From Thermogutta terrifontis (lineage in GTDB: Bacteria > Planctomycetota > Planctomycetia > Pirellulales > Thermoguttaceae): a stretch of 64,000 bases of DNA. Location of the stretch: positions 434,001 to 498,000 of the forward strand of contig NZ_CP018477.1 in NCBI RefSeq assembly GCF_002277955.1, read 5' to 3'. The position numbers and the translations under genes are program-made. Within the stretch, counting starts at the first letter, position 1. Every line of letters begins with the position of its first letter. Positions 4,128-64,000 of this stretch are shown here, piece after piece. The notes beneath the pieces were generated by a model. The model did no database searches. It had not been told where the DNA came from and saw only the letters and a list, made by a program, of their open reading frames with translations.

Positions 4128-4311
4128 GGGGCAATTCATAAATTGCCGCTGCGGTCAAGCGGGAACCCAAACACGCAAACGAGGCACGGTCGCTGGAGTG
4201 GACGGTGGAAACGGGCAAAGCGGACGCGACAAGCACGTCCCTCCGAAAGCGGATTGTCAGGGAGATCCGTCCGGGAAGTCTTTGGGAAGGCCACGCCTGT
4301 CGTGCCCGGGG
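4128..4311. repeat. Degenerate palindromic repeat cluster 1
   Basis: This lies in the 705-base gap 3815-4519. It holds one worn copy of the CAATTCATGAATTG palindrome (4128-4150) and two worn copies of the YTTGT-loop hairpin in reverse orientation or with mismatches (4221-4246, and about 4289-4311 with GTCGTGCCC). The copies are more eroded than those elsewhere in the window. I see no gene in the gap; the overlapping short reading frames only translate the repeats. Confidence 0.6.
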
Positions 4312-32399: not shown

Positions 32400-35012
32400 A
32401 TGGCATCGATGGGGCAAATGCTGACCAGGGAGGATAACCCGCAACGGCTGCCCGGTTGGTTTCAACCGCTCGTGCCGGTGGCGCTGGCCTTTGCTGCCGG
32501 CATTGCATGGGATCGCTGGGCTTTCCCGCCAGAACTCGGCTCTAAGGACGTCCTCCTCGGGTATGCCATCCTGGCTGTGGCGGGTTTAATTGCCGTGTGG
32601 TGGTGGGGATTTAGTAGCCGCGTGAGCCGATGGGCCCTCCTGGTCGTTTTCGCCCTGGCCGGGGCCGCCGAACACCACATAATCTGGCGGTATTTTTCCC
32701 CCCGCGATGTTGGCCTGATGGCCGGTGACTGGCCCCAGCCGGTAGCCCTCCGTGGGGTGGTGACGAGTGTTCCGGAAGCCCTTGCCCGGCCCCAAGCCGC
32801 CCCTTTCGAGCTATTCGCACCTCAACCGGCTGTGCGGTTTACCGTGCGGGTGACGGCCGTCCGCTGTGGACAGATCTGGCAGCCCGCCGCCGGCCGACTG
32901 CTGGTCTATCTGACGTGTCCTCAGCCTTCGGAAGCCGAACCGCACGTGCAGGAAATGCCGGTTTGGTTTTTGCCGGGCGAAAGCCTCCAGATGTTCGGGC
33001 GACTGCGGCGGGCATTTCCTCCCATGAACCCGGGTGGCTTCGATCTTCGCACCTACCGCCGCGAAGACCGGATCCTGGCGGAATTGGCCGTCCCCTATCC
33101 CGAGTGCATCACCCGGCTTGCCCCAGCCTCTTTTTGGAATCCCCAAACGCTGCTGGGATGGTGGCGGCTTCACGCGGCTCAGACGCTCAAAAAATATCTT
33201 TCCGCGGAAAACGAGCCCCTCGCGCAGGCACTCCTGCTCGGATTTCGGACTGAAATTCCCGACGAATTGGAAAGATCGCTGCTCCAAACCGGCACGATTC
33301 ATCTCCTGGCCATCTCGGGGCTGCACGTGGCCATTCTGGTCGGGGTTTTCAATGCCGTGTTCTGGGCGCTTAGAGTTCCCTATCGCTTGCGGATTGGCTC
33401 ACTTCTTGTCGTCATCGCCGTTTACGCGGTGATCAGCGGGGGGCAGCCAAGCACCATTCGCGCGGCCACCACGTTCAGCGTGCTCCTGTTGGGGACGCTG
33501 TTCCATCATTCGTTCTGGTCCATGAACGCGCTGGCTTTTGCGGCACTGGTGATTCTGACCTGGAATCCGGCGGCTCTTTTTCGCCCGGGACCCCAGCTTT
33601 CTTTCCTGGGGGCATCGGTTCTCATCATGGTGGGACGTCGATATTTTGCGGGCACGGTGGGGACTCTGAACAGGGATTTGCCCGCTTCCGCGAACCCCCC
33701 ACGCTTTGCCTGGGTTGAGGCTCTCTCGAAGTGGTTGACTCCCACCCTGGTGGTCACGGTGAGCATTTGGGTGATGTCCTGGCCGCTGGTGTGGCATTCC
33801 TTCCATATCATCAGCCCGTTGGGGATGGTGCTCACGCCCGTGCTCATCCCGCTCATGACCGGCGCGCTGGCTTCGGGATTCGGCCTGCTTTTTGTGGGCC
33901 CTCTTTGGTCGGCCGGAGCTTGGCCGCTGGCGTGGTTGTGTGACGCATGTTTGACCGGTTGTCGCTGGCTCATCCAGCAGGCGGAACACACTTTTCCGCT
34001 CTATACATGGCAGCCGGCACCGCCGACGTGGTGGGTGGCCGGGGTGTATGGATGGTGGATGTTGCTTCTGCTTAGCAGCGGCGGACCCACGCGGCGTCTG
34101 ACGCGGCTGTCATGGACGGGGCTTGGCGGATGGCTGCTGGGCGGAATTGTCTTCCTCGTCTTTCCCGCTGCTCAGGACGCCCGAAACTCCCACGATTTGC
34201 GGATGACGGTTCTTTCCGTGGGCCACGGTCTGGGAATCGTCATAGAGGCCCCCAATGGAGAAGTCTGGCTGTACGATCTGGGAAGTCTGGGGGGTGGCGA
34301 CCGGGCGGCATGGGCGGCGGTCGGCACGCTGTTTACCCGGGGGGTGCGGCGTCTCGACGGAGTCTTGCTCTCCCACGCAGACCTCGATCACTACAACGGT
34401 CTGCCGGATCTACGCCGCTACCTCGCGGTGGAACAGGTGGCGGTTACACCCAGGATGTTTCAGGCGACCGCCCGCCGTGAACCTGGTGTGCGGGCACTCG
34501 AGGAACTCATCGCCTCTCGTAAATTACCGCTGCGCACGATCGCTGCCGGAGATACCTGGTGCTGGGGAGATTGTCGCGTAACGGTACTTCACCCCCCGAC
34601 CGACTGTGCGGGTGTAACGGACAATGCGGCCAGCCTGGTGCTGTGTTTGGAGTACGCTGGCAAGCGAATCCTGCTGACGGGAGACCTTGAAGGGCCGGGC
34701 CTGGAGGCTCTCTTGAGTCGTCCCCCCATCTCCGCGGATGTCCTTGTGGCGCCGCATCATGGCACGGCACGGTCCCGGCCGGAGGAACTCGTTCAGTGGT
34801 GTCGCCCGGAGTACGTGATCATCAGCGGGGGCTGGGCAAGCCTCAGCAACACAGATGGCTTCACGGAGGAACTTCCGCGTCCGGGCAATGCCTCACCAGC
34901 GGCTCCCAAGGTCTTTCATACGGCGGAGGCAGGTGCCATCACCGTGACCATCTCCCCTGATGGCCGCTGCCAGGTAAGTGGATTCCGATCTGCCGCGCAA
35001 ACTCCCTTTTAA
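32400..35012 (+). CDS. comEC: ComEC/Rec2-type DNA uptake channel
   Basis: ComEC forms the inner-membrane channel through which single-stranded DNA enters during natural transformation. The 870-residue protein has an N-terminal membrane and OB-like region (about 1-260). The competence domain follows with the family signatures LLLGFRTEIPDELE and TGTIHLLAISGLHVAIL near 275-310, then GGQPSTIRAATTFSVL and PAALFRPGPQLSFLGAS. Many transmembrane helices lie between about 320 and 580. The C-terminal metallo-beta-lactamase-like domain (about 600-850) has LSHADLDHYNGLPDL (HxDxDH metal motif), GDLEG and VAPHHGTARS, so the putative nuclease motifs are intact. A second ATG at 32418 is an alternative start. 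No other competence gene is in the window. Confidence 0.93.
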   Translation: MASMGQMLTREDNPQRLPGWFQPLVPVALAFAAGIAWDRWAFPPELGSKDVLLGYAILAVAGLIAVWWWGFSSRVSRWALLVVFALAGAAEHHIIWRYFSPRDVGLMAGDWPQPVALRGVVTSVPEALARPQAAPFELFAPQPAVRFTVRVTAVRCGQIWQPAAGRLLVYLTCPQPSEAEPHVQEMPVWFLPGESLQMFGRLRRAFPPMNPGGFDLRTYRREDRILAELAVPYPECITRLAPASFWNPQTLLGWWRLHAAQTLKKYLSAENEPLAQALLLGFRTEIPDELERSLLQTGTIHLLAISGLHVAILVGVFNAVFWALRVPYRLRIGSLLVVIAVYAVISGGQPSTIRAATTFSVLLLGTLFHHSFWSMNALAFAALVILTWNPAALFRPGPQLSFLGASVLIMVGRRYFAGTVGTLNRDLPASANPPRFAWVEALSKWLTPTLVVTVSIWVMSWPLVWHSFHIISPLGMVLTPVLIPLMTGALASGFGLLFVGPLWSAGAWPLAWLCDACLTGCRWLIQQAEHTFPLYTWQPAPPTWWVAGVYGWWMLLLLSSGGPTRRLTRLSWTGLGGWLLGGIVFLVFPAAQDARNSHDLRMTVLSVGHGLGIVIEAPNGEVWLYDLGSLGGGDRAAWAAVGTLFTRGVRRLDGVLLSHADLDHYNGLPDLRRYLAVEQVAVTPRMFQATARREPGVRALEELIASRKLPLRTIAAGDTWCWGDCRVTVLHPPTDCAGVTDNAASLVLCLEYAGKRILLTGDLEGPGLEALLSRPPISADVLVAPHHGTARSRPEELVQWCRPEYVIISGGWASLSNTDGFTEELPRPGNASPAAPKVFHTAEAGAITVTISPDGRCQVSGFRSAAQTPF

Positions 35013-58680: not shown

Positions 58681-59433
58681 ATGCGGGATGATCTGTCGCC
58701 TTTCCGTCCTTCACGTTTTTTTCCACCAGCAGAATCGGCCAATCGTTATGGCGTGGTGGCGGTGGGGGGAACTCTCCATCCGGAGGTGCTCCTCGACGCC
58801 TATGCCCACGGCATTTTTCCCTGGCCGATCGATGAAGACTCGCCCATTGTTTGGGCCTCGCCGGGCACCCGGGCGATTTTCGAATGGGAACACATCCACA
58901 TCCCGCATCGCCTGCGACCGATCATCAAGCGTGGCGATTTTCAGATCACGGTGGACCGCGATTTCTCCGCGGTGATCCGCGGCTGTGCCACCGCGAATGG
59001 CCGGGCGGGTGCGACCTGGATCACCCCGGCGATGATCGAAGCCTACACGCATCTCCACGAACTCGGCTATGCCCACAGCGTCGAAGCCTGGAAAGCTGAC
59101 GAGCTGGCAGGCGGCGTGTACGGCGTGGCGCTGCGTGGGCTTTTCGCGGCCGAATCCATGTTCTATCGCATCAGCAATGCCTCCAAGGTCGCGCTGCTGT
59201 ATCTCCTCGCCCACCTCAAGGCTCGGGGCTACCTCCTTGTGGACATTCAGATGCTCACTCCAGTCACGCAATCGCTGGGGGCGCGCACGATTCGCCGCCG
59301 GCAATACCTTTATCGTCTGGCTGAAGCCCTCCGGGCAAACGTCACCTTTGGGACAACCCTGGAGGTGACCGCCGCCGACGTCCTCGCGCTGGACCAGACG
59401 TATCGTCCATCTTCAGAACCCAATGCAGGCTGA
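58681..59433 (+). CDS. aat: Leucyl/phenylalanyl-tRNA-protein transferase
   Basis: Aat attaches Leu or Phe to N-terminal Arg or Lys of proteins, marking them for ClpAP degradation under the bacterial N-end rule. The 250-residue protein has the family features in order: AYAHGIFPWPIDEDSPIVWASPGTR (about 41-64), CATANGRAGATWITPAMIEAY (about 101-122), HSVEAWKADELAGGVYGVALRG (about 137-158), ESMFYRISNASKVAL (about 162-176), and the end motif DIQMLTPVTQSLGA. Length fits the family. It lies next to the integrated-element-like module downstream but is a normal housekeeping gene. Confidence 0.95.
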   Translation: MRDDLSPFRPSRFFPPAESANRYGVVAVGGTLHPEVLLDAYAHGIFPWPIDEDSPIVWASPGTRAIFEWEHIHIPHRLRPIIKRGDFQITVDRDFSAVIRGCATANGRAGATWITPAMIEAYTHLHELGYAHSVEAWKADELAGGVYGVALRGLFAAESMFYRISNASKVALLYLLAHLKARGYLLVDIQMLTPVTQSLGARTIRRRQYLYRLAEALRANVTFGTTLEVTAADVLALDQTYRPSSEPNAG

Positions 59434-59567
59434 TCGGCCAGCCGAAAAGGTTTCGATACCCCGGACCTCTCTCGCCTTCGCTCCACTCCCGCCTGACATC
59501 ACCCCTGCCACGCATCAGATGCGCATCAAATGGACATGTTTTGCCTGAAAAGATTCCCTCGTCATGC

Positions 59568-59597
59568 TTGCAATTAGTCCACTTCGTGTGATATACT
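59568..59597 (+). promoter_or_regulatory. Candidate sigma70-type promoter of the module
   Basis: TTGCAA (59568-59573) and TATACT (59592-59597) are separated by 18 bases, 4/6 and 5/6 to consensus. It points to the right, with about 205 bases of leader before the GTG at 59810. Confidence 0.45.
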
Positions 59598-59742
59598 GGG
59601 CGGCGTCTTAACCAAAACCCCGACGTACCACGTGGGCAGGTCGATCTCGTGCGAACTCATAAGGTACCAGTCTGAAAGGGCTCTCTGACACCCTCTGGTT
59701 TTCCCGTCGCAGATCGCCTGCCTTATTTTTGTAGCGCAATAG

Positions 59743-59756
59743 TGTACATATGTACA
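59743..59756. promoter_or_regulatory. Perfect 14-bp palindrome, candidate operator
   Basis: TGTACATATGTACA is an exact palindrome, in an AT-rich stretch 54 bases before the GTG of the helix-turn-helix gene. Its position fits an autoregulatory site for a regulator, but there is only one copy and no proof. Confidence 0.4.
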
Positions 59757-59809
59757 TATAAAGTCAACCTATGGGATTGTAAGGGACCTGTACCTTAACG
59801 GAGGCCGTC

Positions 59810-60373
59810 GTGATCTCGCCCGCCCTTGCTGCAAAAGTCCGTTCTCTCTTGGTTGATCAGAAGATGAGCCAGCGGCAGGTCGCCAGGCTCACCGGCGTCA
59901 GTCGCGCCACCGTGAAGGCAATCGCCTCGGGCGAATGGTTTGAACGCTACCGCGCCCGACACGGTTGCGACAACACAACGCCGATCCTTGCACGCTGCCC
60001 GGAATGCGGTGCGATGGTGGAGATGCCTTGCCGCGCCTGCGAAGTGCGGCGGCTCAAAAAGGCAGGCCGAATCCCGCCGCTCCCCGCCACCGAAGATGGG
60101 CCGCCCCGCGTGGAACTCCGCGGCTCGGAGTATGCACGCTACCTGGAAGTCCGTGCGGCGGCCCTCGCTCGGGGCGAACCGGATGCCGACCCCGCCTGGT
60201 CACCCGATAGCGACTCGCACGATACCTGGCTCGACGACGATCCTTTCACCGCTCTGGGATCCCCCACCGAGACTGATCTCGCCAACCTTGAGGCCTCCTT
60301 CGAAAGCCAACCCAGAGGCGATGGCTGGATTGGCGCATTGGTTGTGCCAAGCGAACTGCGGAGGGCCGCCTGA
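59810..60373 (+). CDS. Helix-turn-helix protein with zinc-ribbon-like CxxC pairs
   Basis: The GTG start at 59810 follows GGAGG with about 5-base spacing. The N-terminal residues 19-42 match a helix-turn-helix (SQRQVARLTGVSRATVKAIA), followed by CPEC (63-66) and CRAC (74-77), a possible zinc-binding pair of pairs. The C-terminal half (about 110-187) is acidic and Ser/Pro-rich. This architecture suits a small regulator or a DNA-binding protein of a mobile element. The stop codon overlaps the next start (TGATG at 60371-60375), so the two are translationally coupled. No family name is offered. Confidence 0.75.
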   Translation: MISPALAAKVRSLLVDQKMSQRQVARLTGVSRATVKAIASGEWFERYRARHGCDNTTPILARCPECGAMVEMPCRACEVRRLKKAGRIPPLPATEDGPPRVELRGSEYARYLEVRAAALARGEPDADPAWSPDSDSHDTWLDDDPFTALGSPTETDLANLEASFESQPRGDGWIGALVVPSELRRAA

Positions 60374-62307
60374 TGCATACCGTCCGTCTTCACGTACCCC
60401 TGAACCAAGCCCAGGAGTGGATCCGCGATGGCGATCTGCTCCTCTTCCGGCGGCGGGGCTTAATTGCCGTCGTCGGTCGCGGAGAACACTCGCACGCAGC
60501 CCTCGCCGGATGGTGGGGCGAAACGCTCTGCTGCCTGGAAGTCCGCGCCCTCTACGGGGGCAGAGTCGTCACGCTAGCCAGTCAGGTCAATCGTTATCCT
60601 GGCCGAATCGACGTGTACCAGGCCGACCCTGATGGCCGCTGGCCCGAGTTCGACCGCCAGCAAACGGTCCAGTTCATGCTCCGATTTGCAGGAGAGCAGT
60701 ACGGTTACGGCGGCATCCTCCGCGTCGCCCGGTATCATCTGCCGCTTCTTCGACTTTTCTGTCGTCCGAAGCTGCACGATAGGGAATCAACGTTGTCCCG
60801 CCCGTTCTGCAGCCAGGCGTGCGTCACAGCCACGCGGATTGGTGGGGGAGTGGATCCCGTGCCCCAGTTGGCCGATGAAGCAACGGAACCGGCCGATCTG
60901 GCGCGGAGCCCCTTTTACCGCTACCGCGCCACCCTCGTCCCTGATGACGAACCCACGGACTGTCTGCCGCCAAACGCCCGAGCCAGACGCTCCAGGGGAA
61001 TCTGCTCCTGGCTAGGAGTTCTGATCGCGGGACTGGTGGCCATTGCGATCTGCCTTGGTGGATTACAACGGGTAACGCTGGCCCAGGGATGTGCCCAGGG
61101 TTTTTGCCCCGCCCCTGCCGCACCCTATCCATCCGGCGCCGACCTTCCACAGGTCGTGGGCAGCCGCACCATTGGGAACCTGCCGAAAGACTCTTTACCC
61201 ACGGAATCCGTCGCCCGAATTGAAAACAGACTCACCTCGGGAATAGCCGTTTACGGCTCGGGCGTGCTCATCCGCAAGGATGACCGGTGGGGTTGGATCC
61301 TCACCTGCGACCATCTTTTCCGTGACGGGGTTGGCCGATTGACCGTCTGGCTGCCGAACCGCTCGGCCTACGCCACTTATGAGGGCCGCCTCATTGCGCG
61401 GAGTGCCCCGGATGATCTCGCCGTTGTTGGCATTGCGGCTCCACCCAACGCCCCGGCTGCCGTCGCCGAGACGGTTCCCCGGCCAGGCGATGTCGTTGCT
61501 CTGGCGGGATTCGGACCCAACGGATCACTGAGAGTGGCGCAGGGAGCAGTTCTCGGCTATGTCCAAACGGCCGGCAGTTCCGGTGTAGAAACGCTCCAGA
61601 TCCGCGCTGCTGCCCGCGATGGCGATTCCGGCGGACCGATCCTTGACAGCTCAGGTCGCGTGGTGGCCATTCTGTGGGGGACAGACGGCTACCGCACCGT
61701 GGGCACTTATTGCGGAAGAATCCGCCAGTTTCTCGCCGGGATTTTCGGTGATCAGCGGCCTGCTCCCCGATCGCCGGAAAACCTTCTCGTGCCGATTCCT
61801 CCGCAGGAGGCGGCGCCCTCTCCACCCAGGCCACCGAGCAACCCGATCGACGGAAGTCAGACCCCGCCAGATTCACTGCTCGCGCAACTGCAAGCACGGC
61901 TGGAAGAACTCCGCCAGCGAGTGGAAGCCCGATTCGCAAATGAGGAACCTCTGAGCGAGCGTCTCAGGCAACTCGAAGAGCGAACCTCGCTGGTGAGCCA
62001 ATTGAGGGAGCGCGTGGAACGGGCGGAGCAGGTGGTCGGGGCGGAAAACATTCGGGCGGTGATCCGGCAGACAGCCGCCGATCTTCTCGCCGAAAAAGGC
62101 CCCGGCTGGCTGGATACAATCCTCCCCGCCGTGCTGACGGCCCTGGGATGGACCGGTCCACCGTCCATCGCGCTGGCCTTTGCCGCCCGACTTGGTTTGA
62201 GAATTCTCGAGCGTCGGCTGCGTCAGCGGGTGGCAGAGGCCCTTTCCTCCAGGGAATCGACCTCCACGGACGCAACATCAGATCAGAAGACGTCGCCTTC
62301 AAGCTGA
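60373..62307 (+). CDS. Permuted NlpC/P60-like domain fused to trypsin-like protease (644 aa)
   Basis: Residues about 15-185 look like a circularly permuted papain-fold (YiiX / NlpC-P60-like) domain: GDLLLF, then GEHSHAAL with the candidate histidine (H39 or H41), and PFCSQACV with the candidate nucleophile (C146), in His-before-Cys order. A transmembrane or signal-like helix (about 210-236) ends in LAQG. A chymotrypsin-fold domain follows with H314 in LTCDHLF, D348 in APDDLAVVG, and S419 in RDGDSGGPIL. A Pro-rich linker (about 465-500), a coiled coil (about 500-560) and a hydrophobic C-terminal region (about 580-610) complete it. Two hydrolase folds separated by a membrane helix in one chain is unusual. 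The likely target is peptidoglycan amide or proteins. Confidence 0.75.
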   Translation: MHTVRLHVPLNQAQEWIRDGDLLLFRRRGLIAVVGRGEHSHAALAGWWGETLCCLEVRALYGGRVVTLASQVNRYPGRIDVYQADPDGRWPEFDRQQTVQFMLRFAGEQYGYGGILRVARYHLPLLRLFCRPKLHDRESTLSRPFCSQACVTATRIGGGVDPVPQLADEATEPADLARSPFYRYRATLVPDDEPTDCLPPNARARRSRGICSWLGVLIAGLVAIAICLGGLQRVTLAQGCAQGFCPAPAAPYPSGADLPQVVGSRTIGNLPKDSLPTESVARIENRLTSGIAVYGSGVLIRKDDRWGWILTCDHLFRDGVGRLTVWLPNRSAYATYEGRLIARSAPDDLAVVGIAAPPNAPAAVAETVPRPGDVVALAGFGPNGSLRVAQGAVLGYVQTAGSSGVETLQIRAAARDGDSGGPILDSSGRVVAILWGTDGYRTVGTYCGRIRQFLAGIFGDQRPAPRSPENLLVPIPPQEAAPSPPRPPSNPIDGSQTPPDSLLAQLQARLEELRQRVEARFANEEPLSERLRQLEERTSLVSQLRERVERAEQVVGAENIRAVIRQTAADLLAEKGPGWLDTILPAVLTALGWTGPPSIALAFAARLGLRILERRLRQRVAEALSSRESTSTDATSDQKTSPSS

Positions 62308-62345
62308 GTGACACACTCAACGACCCAGGTTACGGAGCCCACACC

Positions 62346-62627
62346 ATGTCGCCGCTTGATTGGGGGTTTGCCACGGCCCTTGTGACCACTGGCGTGGCAG
62401 TGCTTTTACCCTGGATGCTCATGGTCCATGCACGGCTCGCCGTAGCCGTCAGCAAGCTCCAGGACCTGGAAAAACGCATGACGGCGCTGAGCGAACGTCT
62501 GGATGCCCTGTGCGATCTGGAACACGAGCGCCAACTCGACTCCGCCCGCTGGGAAGGCCGCCTGCGCACGTTGGAAGAGCAACTGGGAGACATCCCCGAA
62601 GTTCCAGGTGATTTTCCCGTTTCCTGA
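62346..62627 (+). CDS. Small membrane protein with coiled coil (93 aa)
   Basis: The ATG at 62346 is preferred over an upstream frame extension (62148) that overlaps the protease gene. Residues about 7-30 form one transmembrane helix (WGFATALVTTGVAVLLPWML). The rest is a heptad-rich cytoplasmic or periplasmic helix (LQDLEKRMTALSERLDAL and further), ending in an acidic tail. The size and layout recall small holin-like or membrane-anchor proteins of phages, but the match is only structural. It lies 38 bases after the protease gene. Confidence 0.6.
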   Translation: MSPLDWGFATALVTTGVAVLLPWMLMVHARLAVAVSKLQDLEKRMTALSERLDALCDLEHERQLDSARWEGRLRTLEEQLGDIPEVPGDFPVS

Positions 62628-62650
62628 CCCCTGTATAGGCAAAGACGACC

Positions 62651-63208
62651 ATGCACATCCGTGATCGGATCAAAGAGTTGCGGCGTGTGCGGGCAGGAGA
62701 TCTCCGGCCCAACCCCCGCAACTGGCGCATCCATCCCGACAAACAGCGTGCAGCCCTCCGCGGAATCCTGGCGGAAATCGGCTATGCCGACGCCCTCCTG
62801 GCCCGGGAACTGGCCGACGGCACCCTCGAGTTGATCGACGGTCATCTCCGCGCCGAGACCACTCCCGATGCCGTTGTCCCGGTGCTCATTCTGGACCTCA
62901 ACGAGCAAGAGGCGGCCAAGTTACTCGCCCTGCTGGATCCCCTGGCTAACCTGGCCGAAGCCGACACCGAAGCACTGGCCGACCTTGCCAGCGAACTGGA
63001 TCTTCAAAGCCCCGTCCTCCGTGATCTGCTCCATGAGATGCTTTCCGTCCCTGGCAATGACGAGGAGTCTCCGGATTCCCCTGTCCTGCCGCAATCGCTC
63101 CCGGAGAGCTTTCAGGTGGTCGTGGAATGCGAGGACGAAGACCAGCAGCGTGAGGTGTTCGAGCGGCTCTCCGCCGAGGGATACAACTGCCGCTTGCTCA
63201 CGCTGTAG
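62651..63208 (+). CDS. ParB-like N-terminal domain protein
   Basis: The 185-residue protein has ParB/Srx-type features: DLRPNPRNWRIHPDKQRAAL (about 17-36), then GYADALLARELADGTLELIDGHLRAE (about 44-69), with strand VVPVLILDLNEQEAAKLLALLD. The acidic C-terminal part (about 120-185) has no HTH, so it is not a chromosome-type ParB with a full DNA-binding domain. Short ParB-like proteins of this kind are found in phages and integrated elements, often near DNA methylases or packaging genes. It starts 23 bases after the small membrane protein and 67 bases before the ATPase. Confidence 0.8.
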   Translation: MHIRDRIKELRRVRAGDLRPNPRNWRIHPDKQRAALRGILAEIGYADALLARELADGTLELIDGHLRAETTPDAVVPVLILDLNEQEAAKLLALLDPLANLAEADTEALADLASELDLQSPVLRDLLHEMLSVPGNDEESPDSPVLPQSLPESFQVVVECEDEDQQREVFERLSAEGYNCRLLTL

Positions 63209-63275
63209 ACCGGCTGATAGCCCAACGCAAAACACCGGCAACTTCAAGCACAAGCGTGATGCAAAGGGAACACCC

Positions 63276-64000
63276 ATGTCTGAACCGTTCGTGATTGAGT
63301 TGACCCTGGAAAGTCCGGTGGCCAACAGTTTCCGTGTGGCCCAGGTGGCGGGAATGTTCGACCTCGATCTGCAGAAGGCGTCCCGTGAAACGATCACCCT
63401 CACCATTCCCCCGCAGAAAGAGGACTGGCGGTTGGGGGTCATCGTGGGACCGTCGGGAAGTGGCAAATCGACGCTCGCCCGCTGGTTGTTTGGCGATCGG
63501 GTCCTCTCCCGTTTTTCCTGGCCCAGCGATCGGCCCGTCATCGACGCCTTTCCCGATCTTTCCATCAAGCAGATTGTGGGCCTGCTCACCACAGTGGGAT
63601 TTGCTTCACCGCCGGCCTGGTTGCGGCCGTACCACCTGCTCAGTAACGGTGAGAAGGCCCGCTGCGACCTCGCCCGGGCCCTTGCTTGCTCTCAGACCTG
63701 CCCGTCCGCGGAAGCCGCCCTGGAGCGCTGGCACCGCCTCCTTCCGCCCGATGCCGACAAACACCTGCCGCTTGTCGTTTGCGATGAATTCACCAGCGTG
63801 GTGGATCGGCATGTAGCCCGGGCCATTGCCGCCGGAATTCACCGCCGGATGCAGCGTGGCGAGCTGGCCTGCCGCTTCGTCGCCGTCACCTGTCATTACG
63901 ACATCATCGAATGGCTGGCCCCGCATTGGGTCATCGACATGGCGACGCGGCAGTTTACAAGGAGGTGTCTTCCACGACCTCCCATCACGCTGGCGATTGT
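63276..64000 (+). CDS. ABC-type ATPase, 3' end outside window
   Basis: The gene starts at ATG 63276 and runs off the right edge, with 241 complete codons visible. The protein has Walker A GPSGSGKST (58-66), a signature-like LLSNGEKARCDLARAL (121-136), Walker B PLVVCDEFTSVVDR (165-178), and an H-loop-like VTCHYDI (204-210). The spacing between Walker A and signature is short, and there is no transmembrane domain, so it is a soluble ABC ATPase rather than a transporter subunit. The visible C-terminal residues (RRCLPRPPITL) suggest another domain follows; I recall that some phage-associated ABC ATPases are fused to an acetyltransferase domain after such a stretch, which cannot be checked here. 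Confidence 0.8.
   Translation, partial: MSEPFVIELTLESPVANSFRVAQVAGMFDLDLQKASRETITLTIPPQKEDWRLGVIVGPSGSGKSTLARWLFGDRVLSRFSWPSDRPVIDAFPDLSIKQIVGLLTTVGFASPPAWLRPYHLLSNGEKARCDLARALACSQTCPSAEAALERWHRLLPPDADKHLPLVVCDEFTSVVDRHVARAIAAGIHRRMQRGELACRFVAVTCHYDIIEWLAPHWVIDMATRQFTRRCLPRPPITLAI

Follow-up and report, generated by a model that had tools for sequence, protein, structure and literature searches.

Known gene transfer agents (GTAs) mostly deliver DNA by a tail. According to the available part of PMC12946183, they are known from few lineages, mostly Alphaproteobacteria; in excerpts of two further sources, PMC9953437 deals with the classified GTA families, and PMC7947584 treats GTA terminases and places a Zavarzinella prophage large terminase (TerL) near the group of the Rhodobacter capsulatus agent RcGTA. 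Here we analysed 64,000 nucleotides of Thermogutta terrifontis (phylum Planctomycetota, order Pirellulales), termed the window and comprising bases 434,001–498,000 of a single-contig 4.81 Mb genome, together with a further 60 kb overlapping it and extending rightward. A plus-strand run of 18 genes (A–R), from 59,810 to ~75,427 in window numbering (~15.6 kb), encodes a phage-type head and its packaging machinery and is very probably phage-derived and domesticated. We favour, as a likely though not a strong reading of the sequence evidence, that it is a GTA-like system of Pirellulales, mainly vertically inherited, which would form DNA-filled, plugged heads serving the host, with little or no tail. 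This reading is built on gene content, gene order, conservation, splitting of the locus, invariant terminase motifs, and a tape measure missing in most loci.

The cluster resembles RcGTA and other GTAs in having phage-derived head and packaging genes in the host chromosome, sometimes in several loci, with a vertical signal and purifying selection and with integrase and replication genes unrecognised; half of gene O is also structurally like the RcGTA virion protein 6tba_3A. It differs in its built-in ParB-like and ABC-GNAT genes, in that a tape measure was not found, and in being known from genes alone. Its major capsid protein (MCP) profile gave zero matches at E up to 1 against all Protein Data Bank (PDB) chains, a set in which the presence of the RcGTA 6tba capsid chain was unchecked, 6tba itself being included in the PDB structure library, and the nearest GenBank phages of TerL were DMS3-like (~36%). 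The complete tail of PBSX in Bacillus subtilis serves killing, whereas the tail is reduced in the planctomycete cluster; the PBSX protein XkdH resembles half of gene O. In the available part of PMC12946183, PBSX is a defective-phage locus that packages host DNA without injecting it, and FpGTA of Faecalibacterium is a GTA-like cluster outside Alphaproteobacteria whose particles have no identifiable tails. FpGTA is podovirus-like with short-tail homologues and was shown by sequencing and proteomics (same part of PMC12946183), whereas the planctomycete cluster, compared with it by description, has a gene order in common with siphophage-type relatives and is genomic only.

The genes run in the order regulator, amidase-like/trypsin protein, ParB-like protein, ABC ATPase-GNAT, terminases, portal, prohead protease, cement, capsid and neck/tail-related proteins. 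Four small genes (C, M and N among them) were taken from the open reading frame (ORF) list and not from the first automatic pick. The cluster genes and their neighbours, with the E-values of their matches, are:

59810–60373, plus strand: gene A, first gene of the cluster, N-terminal helix-turn-helix (HTH; HTH_3, E 4.5e-05) and two CxxC pairs
60373–62307, plus strand: gene B, weak cysteine-peptidase/YiiX/C92-like amidase-type N-domain (Peptidase_C92, E 0.056), transmembrane segment, trypsin-like protease (Trypsin_2, E 3.9e-17), coiled coil
62346–62627, plus strand: gene C, small membrane/coiled-coil protein, weakly DUF2730-like (PF10805, E 0.055; phrog_1009, E 0.0016)
62651–63208, plus strand: gene D, ParB-like domain (phrog_498, E 2.5e-12; phrog_620, E 1.2e-10; zero Pfam matches)
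63276–64523 (cut by the window at 64000), plus strand: gene E, soluble ABC ATPase (PF00005, E 3e-06) fused to a C-terminal GNAT acetyltransferase (PF00583, E 2.8e-10); phrog_11143, E 1.2e-90
~64,593–65,105, plus strand: gene F, small terminase (TerS; phrog_4102, E 2.8e-14)
ending at 66,750, plus strand: gene G, TerL (phrog_38, E 1.7e-86)
ending at 68,196, plus strand: gene H, portal (PF05136, E 1.2e-16)
68,305–69,174, plus strand: gene I, prohead-protease-like (phrog_29592, function unknown, E 4e-11; phrog_207, head maturation protease, E 0.0014)
ending at 70,038, plus strand: gene J, cement (PF09956, E 1.2e-7)
ending at 71,285, plus strand: gene K, MCP (PF25209, E 8.2e-21)
71,356–72,183, plus strand: gene L, LamG
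between L and P, plus strand: genes M, N and O, zero Pfam or PHROGs matches under E 0.05
ending at 73,951, plus strand: gene P, tail completion gp17 (PF11367, E 8.6e-8)
between P and R, plus strand: gene Q, matching only a PHROG of unknown function
74,576–75,427, plus strand: gene R, last gene of the cluster
58,681–59,433: aat-like gene (named by eye), left neighbour
75,454–77,043, minus strand: sugar-isomerase-like gene (PF24856, E 2.7e-4, below its cut-off), right neighbour
right of the isomerase-like gene: uroD-like gene (named by eye)

An initial annotation of the window had described the left part of this run as the edge of an integrated-element-like module. ORF coordinates bear out its compact, same-strand, partly overlapping genes from 59,810, and the identities it proposed (HTH with CxxC pairs, protease fusion, small membrane protein, ParB-like domain, ABC ATPase) hold; the GNAT domain of gene E lies past the window edge and was hence invisible to it. 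It had seen no structural gene, which is true inside the window, but terminase, portal and capsid genes start ~0.6 kb right of the edge, and the apparent lack arose because the window stops short of them. The phage resemblance it suspected is thereby confirmed, with terminase, portal, prohead-protease-like, cement and capsid genes directly downstream. The single promoter that it assumed does not stand out, since one sigma70-like site was found (59568–59597) and shuffled sequences average 0.9. Its statement that the window's repeats are absent here, examined with recurring 14-mers and not palindromes as such, is correct for 59,434–64,000 (zero recurring 14-mers) and fails further right, where such 14-mers lie inside the cluster (68,400–68,414; 69,236–69,417), those at 69.2–69.4 kb being recurrent ones common to other intergenic gaps, a further sign of a domesticated locus. 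Over 118 kb the recurrent 14-mers group into 22 clusters (14 to the left of the head cluster, three inside, five right), at window positions 4228–58498 and 69236–69417, with one cluster between genes I and J. The G + C content was 62.3% in the cluster versus 59.5% in the left flank and 58.9% in the right flank.

Selection on the cluster was assessed by the ratio of nonsynonymous to synonymous substitution rates (dN/dS), which against the same-genus genome G001 was 0.035–0.214 for all 18 genes (gene A, 0.21; portal compared over 403 of 453 residues) and 0.064 for the flanking isomerase gene. The TerL residues assigned to the Walker A lysine, the Walker B DD and the two nuclease aspartates were invariant in 27 of 27 sequences, and the Walker, signature and GNAT residues of gene E were identical in at least 95% of 22 sequences. 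Pairwise distances correlated with those of rpoB for MCP (r 0.69, 0/2000 permutations as high), portal (r 0.55, 0/2000) and TerL (r 0.54, 3/2000), and MCP and TerL distances correlated with each other (r 0.72); divergent G039 was left out of these correlations, rpoB was missing in two of the 30 genomes, and a third with a two-piece rpoB was unused. Mainly vertical inheritance with purifying selection, as in GTAs, is what these values describe, the agreement with rpoB being partial.

The locus is often split. Portal and MCP genes were separated in 10 of the 23 judgeable genomes (G039 among them, as contiguous) and contiguous, i.e. at most 4.2 kb apart on the same strand, in 13; the contigs of four further genomes were too short to judge. 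In the single-contig genome G029 the portal (4.375 Mb), TerL (4.424 Mb) and MCP (4.439 Mb) are spread over 64 kb, with TonB-receptor, transporter and PALP genes beside the portal, and the portal neighbours in G017 are NadA and S1-domain genes. Right-flank genes recur: a substrate-binding-type gene (by eye) lies 1.8–7.3 kb downstream of gene O in 8 of the 19 loci compared, an MBL-fold hydrolase gene (by eye) in the right flank of 7 of the 19, the same isomerase gene follows R in G001, and a related isomerase lies near R in G022 in the same relative orientation. The initial annotation had held that a conserved order at syntenic positions in many unrelated planctomycetes, or chromosomal genes immediately downstream, would speak against an insert. 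Both were found in part: gene order is conserved in many planctomycete genomes and right-flank genes are common to 8/19 loci, yet the position is not identical in all relatives and the cluster is often split; chromosomal-looking genes follow directly at 75.45 kb.

Among 40 genomes (own included, weak matches counted), the portal was found in 30, MCP in 32 and TerL in 33, and in a phylum-wide sample the MCP profile matched 57 of 393 genomes. Matches above 600 bits occurred in 17 of the 19 same-order genomes outside the coded family f16 (G026 and G031 had none); most of these genomes had one MCP match, and in G287, G311 and G032, which had more, the extras were partial or weak. Family f16 gave matches of 281–304 bits in 9/20 genomes, and families f19 and f21 mostly weaker ones (138–445 bits), the examples viewed looking like separate lineages. 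Some genomes carry a second, divergent copy. In the named-locus scan every title was planctomycete among the best 80 of 118 loci, the order being taken as Pirellulales on the strength of these titles, and the nearest named relative in the survey was a Thermogutta metagenome-assembled genome (MAG) with an MCP 97% identical. The titles and abstract openings listed for open-licence papers on planctomycete GTAs, planctomycete or Thermogutta prophages, and virus-like particles contained no description of the head cluster. As a side observation, loci L280–L294 (families f16, f19 and f21, Planctomycetia) contain separate, more distantly related forms of the head cluster, which could be further domesticated lineages; portal or terminase matches were not found within the 20 kb viewed in L284, L287 and L291.

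Most loci that have both tail tube and tail tip lack, between the two, the tape measure seen in related phages, as tested by the gap between the tail-tube gene and gene R. Five of the 29 loci with MCPs less than 53% identical held both genes, with gaps of 2.3–3.0 kb (two being near-identical contigs). At 53% identity or more, 18 of 79 named loci held both, with a gap of at most 438 bp in 15, and 8 of 53 viral loci did so, with 19–274 bp in five. The natural comparison for this loss is L117 (G001:C896, 1–20000, in a Thermogutta MAG), a divergent prophage-like relative with a RusA resolvase, a head-morphogenesis gene, a capsid ~35% identical, and a tape measure of 548 aa recognised by profile. 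L117 and the siphophage-type IMG/VR contigs L360 and L373 have in common with the cluster the order prohead–cement–MCP–N–O–P–tail tube–...–R (order checked for L360 and L373); they differ in MCPs below 53% identity to that of the cluster and in a gene of 548–714 aa separating tail tube from R, which a profile (L117) or inspection by eye (L360, L373) identifies as a tape measure. In our genome a tail-tube match was not found (such matches occur in 10 of 31 genomes, in G001 confined to the second, prophage-like copy), and neither PF10145 (tape measure) nor the L117 tape measure gave any match. PF10145 matched in 9 of 30 genomes at E up to 0.001, three of them over the cut-off. Gene R was present in 6 of the 21 genomes tested and not found in any of seven f7 genomes, and the six f7 clusters viewed all end at gene O. 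Some relatives retain tail-tube and tail-tip genes.

Structure models were made for genes O and R. The model of gene O (mean predicted local distance difference test [pLDDT] score 83) showed two tandem small beta domains. Foldseek gave no match at E up to 0.001; in a second-look structure search 25 of the first 26 rows were phage neck, connector or portal-region entries, the remaining one being an uncharacterised Shigella protein. Gene O aligned with the SPP1 connector 7z4w (Z 9.9, root-mean-square deviation [rmsd] 3.6, 101 aligned), and half of it with PBSX XkdH 3f3b (Z 10.1, rmsd 4.3, 88 aligned) and RcGTA 6tba_3A (Z 9.2, rmsd 3.0, 96 aligned). We read gene O, from its model, as a putative double stopper. 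For gene R (pLDDT 78), Foldseek likewise gave no match at E up to 0.001, and tail-tip/baseplate proteins filled the first five rows of the second-look search with residues 1–112 (Z ~6, a range that the tool calls common), suggesting a weak tail-tip resemblance. Its homologue directly follows the tape measure in L117; in L360 and L373 it comes after a gene that by eye resembles a tape measure.

In most loci reaching that far, genes D and E are adjacent and precede the terminase genes, and gene D is 46–65% identical in relatives. Gordonia phage Jace has adjacent ParB-like and ABC-GNAT genes (gp85–gp86), gp86 being 40% identical to gene E over 90%, and the Mu-like phage Komp_PAO1_1 has an ABC-GNAT gene after its tail-fibre genes and before a formyltransferase-like gene. 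In Mu, the mom modification gene occupies the same place as this Komp_PAO1_1 gene. In both phages, but not in the planctomycete cluster, a gene whose annotation is aspartate decarboxylase or formyltransferase comes after the ABC-GNAT gene. The pair could plausibly act in DNA modification. The literature yielded nothing usable on the pairing of ParB with ABC-GNAT, which the available part of PMC10853773 does not cover.

Gene A, whose family occurs in 12 of the 41 loci compared and whose weak matches to regulator and transposition families are confined to the HTH, is by sequence a candidate regulator of the cluster. Gene B is probably a fusion in T. terrifontis, because several relatives give two gene B matches. 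Of the 19 loci compared, 12 have a small minus-strand XRE-type HTH gene (by eye), for example L276–L278 and named loci such as L146 and L175, and in 11 of these it lies no more than ~200 bp from where gene O ends; it is a candidate repressor of the cluster.

Integrase, excisionase, primase and replication genes were not recognised among the 18 genes with Pfam and PHROGs, in which some genes remain unmatched, so that the integrase missing from the window did not appear on rightward extension either, although terminase, portal and capsid genes did. The 20 kb surrounding the cluster contain no tRNA, and the ends have no common repeat longer than 12 exact bases, hence no clear attachment (att) site. 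A present-day mobile insert, as the initial annotation proposed, is not supported by these results, and the term resident, domesticated phage-head locus fits better than integrated element. The combination found is that of GTAs, phage-like head and packaging genes in the host chromosome without a recognised integrase, excisionase or replication module. The contiguous complete genome, integration genes and full tail of a temperate phage were not found, nor were the integrase and excision/replication genes that a phage-inducible chromosomal island (PICI)-like satellite would own.

Two classes were rejected. An ordinary prophage is ruled out by the portal/capsid split in 10/23 genomes and by unrecognised integration genes and sites, and by a portal that, in one single-contig genome, has transporter and metabolic genes as neighbours; a core locus without anything phage-like is ruled out by the capsid and terminase matches. 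The initial annotation had also considered an unknown defence or transfer system, and the transfer part comes close to our preferred reading. Defence is kept as a minor possibility, no defence name having come from Pfam or PHROGs (18 genes) or NCBIfam (10 genes). Matches in PADLOC (10 of the 18 proteins) were gene A to mad1 (E 1.2e-4, HTH only), gene E partially to mad3 of the MADS defence system (E 1.3e-11), gene B to a reverse-transcriptase-linked protease model (E 5.6e-10, protease part) and gene D to a type II methyltransferase (E 0.0023); no other mads protein was found among the ten tested, and these matches look like shared domains.

Several observations weigh against a GTA-like, vertically inherited and nearly tail-less system. 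The three genes compared follow rpoB only in part, which makes some horizontal exchange likely, and the portal is missing from 6 of 27 good-quality genomes, a patchy presence. Against the more distant genus-mate G002, dN/dS was 0.13–0.53, highest in O and P, with dS mostly above 1. TerL of G008, G030 and G038 (3 of the 27 TerL matches used) and the portals of G016 and G033 were reported with internal stops. In the same-genus genome G003 (L120, G003:C81:1–20000), A-B-C is directly followed by K-L-M, D–J are gone, and TerL and portal were not found; this is either a capsid kept without its packaging motor or an assembly error, misassembly being possible because the assembly is fragmented. The 13 contiguous genomes hold portal and MCP in prophage fashion, 209 MCP relatives lie in IMG/VR contigs, and the inspected IMG/VR loci with at least 53% MCP identity have the gene order of the cluster (IMG/VR locus comparisons rest on the best 80 of 209 loci). 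The putative tail loss itself rests on failing to find divergent genes with these profiles; gaps of 772, 1052 and 1701 bp occur in the other 3/18 named loci and of 1188–1746 bp in 3/8 viral loci, some of the larger gaps containing chaperone-like genes and short remnants by eye, and PF10145 exceeds its cut-off in G023, G032 and G033, so tails elsewhere in those genomes are possible.

On such grounds the cluster might be a defective or cryptic prophage of a family common in Pirellulales, its remnants retained by lysogens and its conservation arising from repeated infection by related phages. True phage-like relatives do exist (L117 with RusA and tape measure in G001; the IMG/VR contigs), presence is patchy, second divergent copies occur, G003 has a large internal deletion, and contiguous loci are in the majority of judged genomes. 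Decaying remnants would not be expected to show low dN/dS in all 18 genes, invariant TerL motif residues, right-flank genes common between genera, or pieces scattered among chromosomal genes, and we give this explanation little credence.

That the capsid was co-opted for a use other than transfer, as a tail-less DNA-packaging or storage compartment or as a PBSX-like killing or stress particle, would fit the f7 clusters that lack R and end at the stopper gene, our genome without a tape-measure match, and the packaging without injection described for PBSX. We consider it improbable, since portal, terminase and stopper together would imply DNA filling, costly for a toxin or a store, and tail-tube and tail-tip genes are kept in some relatives. 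A PICI-like satellite that has its own head genes and borrows the tails of a helper phage, which would account for the lack of a tail and suit the 15.6 kb length, the head-heavy gene set and the related tailed prophage L117 in a genus-mate, is highly improbable given the unrecognised integrase, primase and excision gene, the lack of an att site or tRNA, the split loci, the presence in 17/19 same-order genomes outside f16 and the lack of tail-tube or tape-measure matches in our own genome.

Under the favoured GTA-like reading, we infer particle formation, cargo, modification, release and transfer from the gene set. A host signal, with gene A as candidate switch, would trigger expression of portal, prohead, protease, cement and capsid, and TerS/TerL would fill the head with DNA. 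In genomes with scattered genes this cargo would most likely be host chromosomal DNA, because it cannot then be the element itself, and particles packing the whole gene set are unlikely in split genomes. The ParB-like and ABC-GNAT pair may modify or mark DNA around packaging, and gene O would plug the portal via its two stopper domains. Heads would exit by lysis or regulated release, with gene B as a candidate envelope-cutting enzyme, and delivery, if any, might use a very short tail, another surface protein, or natural transformation taking up the released DNA. A bolder version, possible but doubtful, is an order-wide, ancient tail-less organelle whose double-stoppered heads, chemically marked host DNA inside them, would share genes without an injection tail: the particle would do no more than protect the DNA, which ParB/ABC-GNAT had marked and which the recipients' competence machinery would take up. 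A ComEC-type competence gene lies in the window (33231–34073, plus strand; PF03772, E 4.7e-44), and ComEC was found in 11/12 genomes versus 10/14 control genomes; its presence is uninformative because control genomes mostly carry it too.

If the GTA-like reading is true, Planctomycetota would harbour a widespread, largely vertical GTA relative for which no sequence link to solved capsids was detected and whose tail would have been lost in steps. Phage-finding pipelines may label such chromosomal fragments as viruses, as the IMG/VR relatives suggest. Phage heads would then have been domesticated once more to move or handle host DNA, and the need for a tail in such systems would be questioned.

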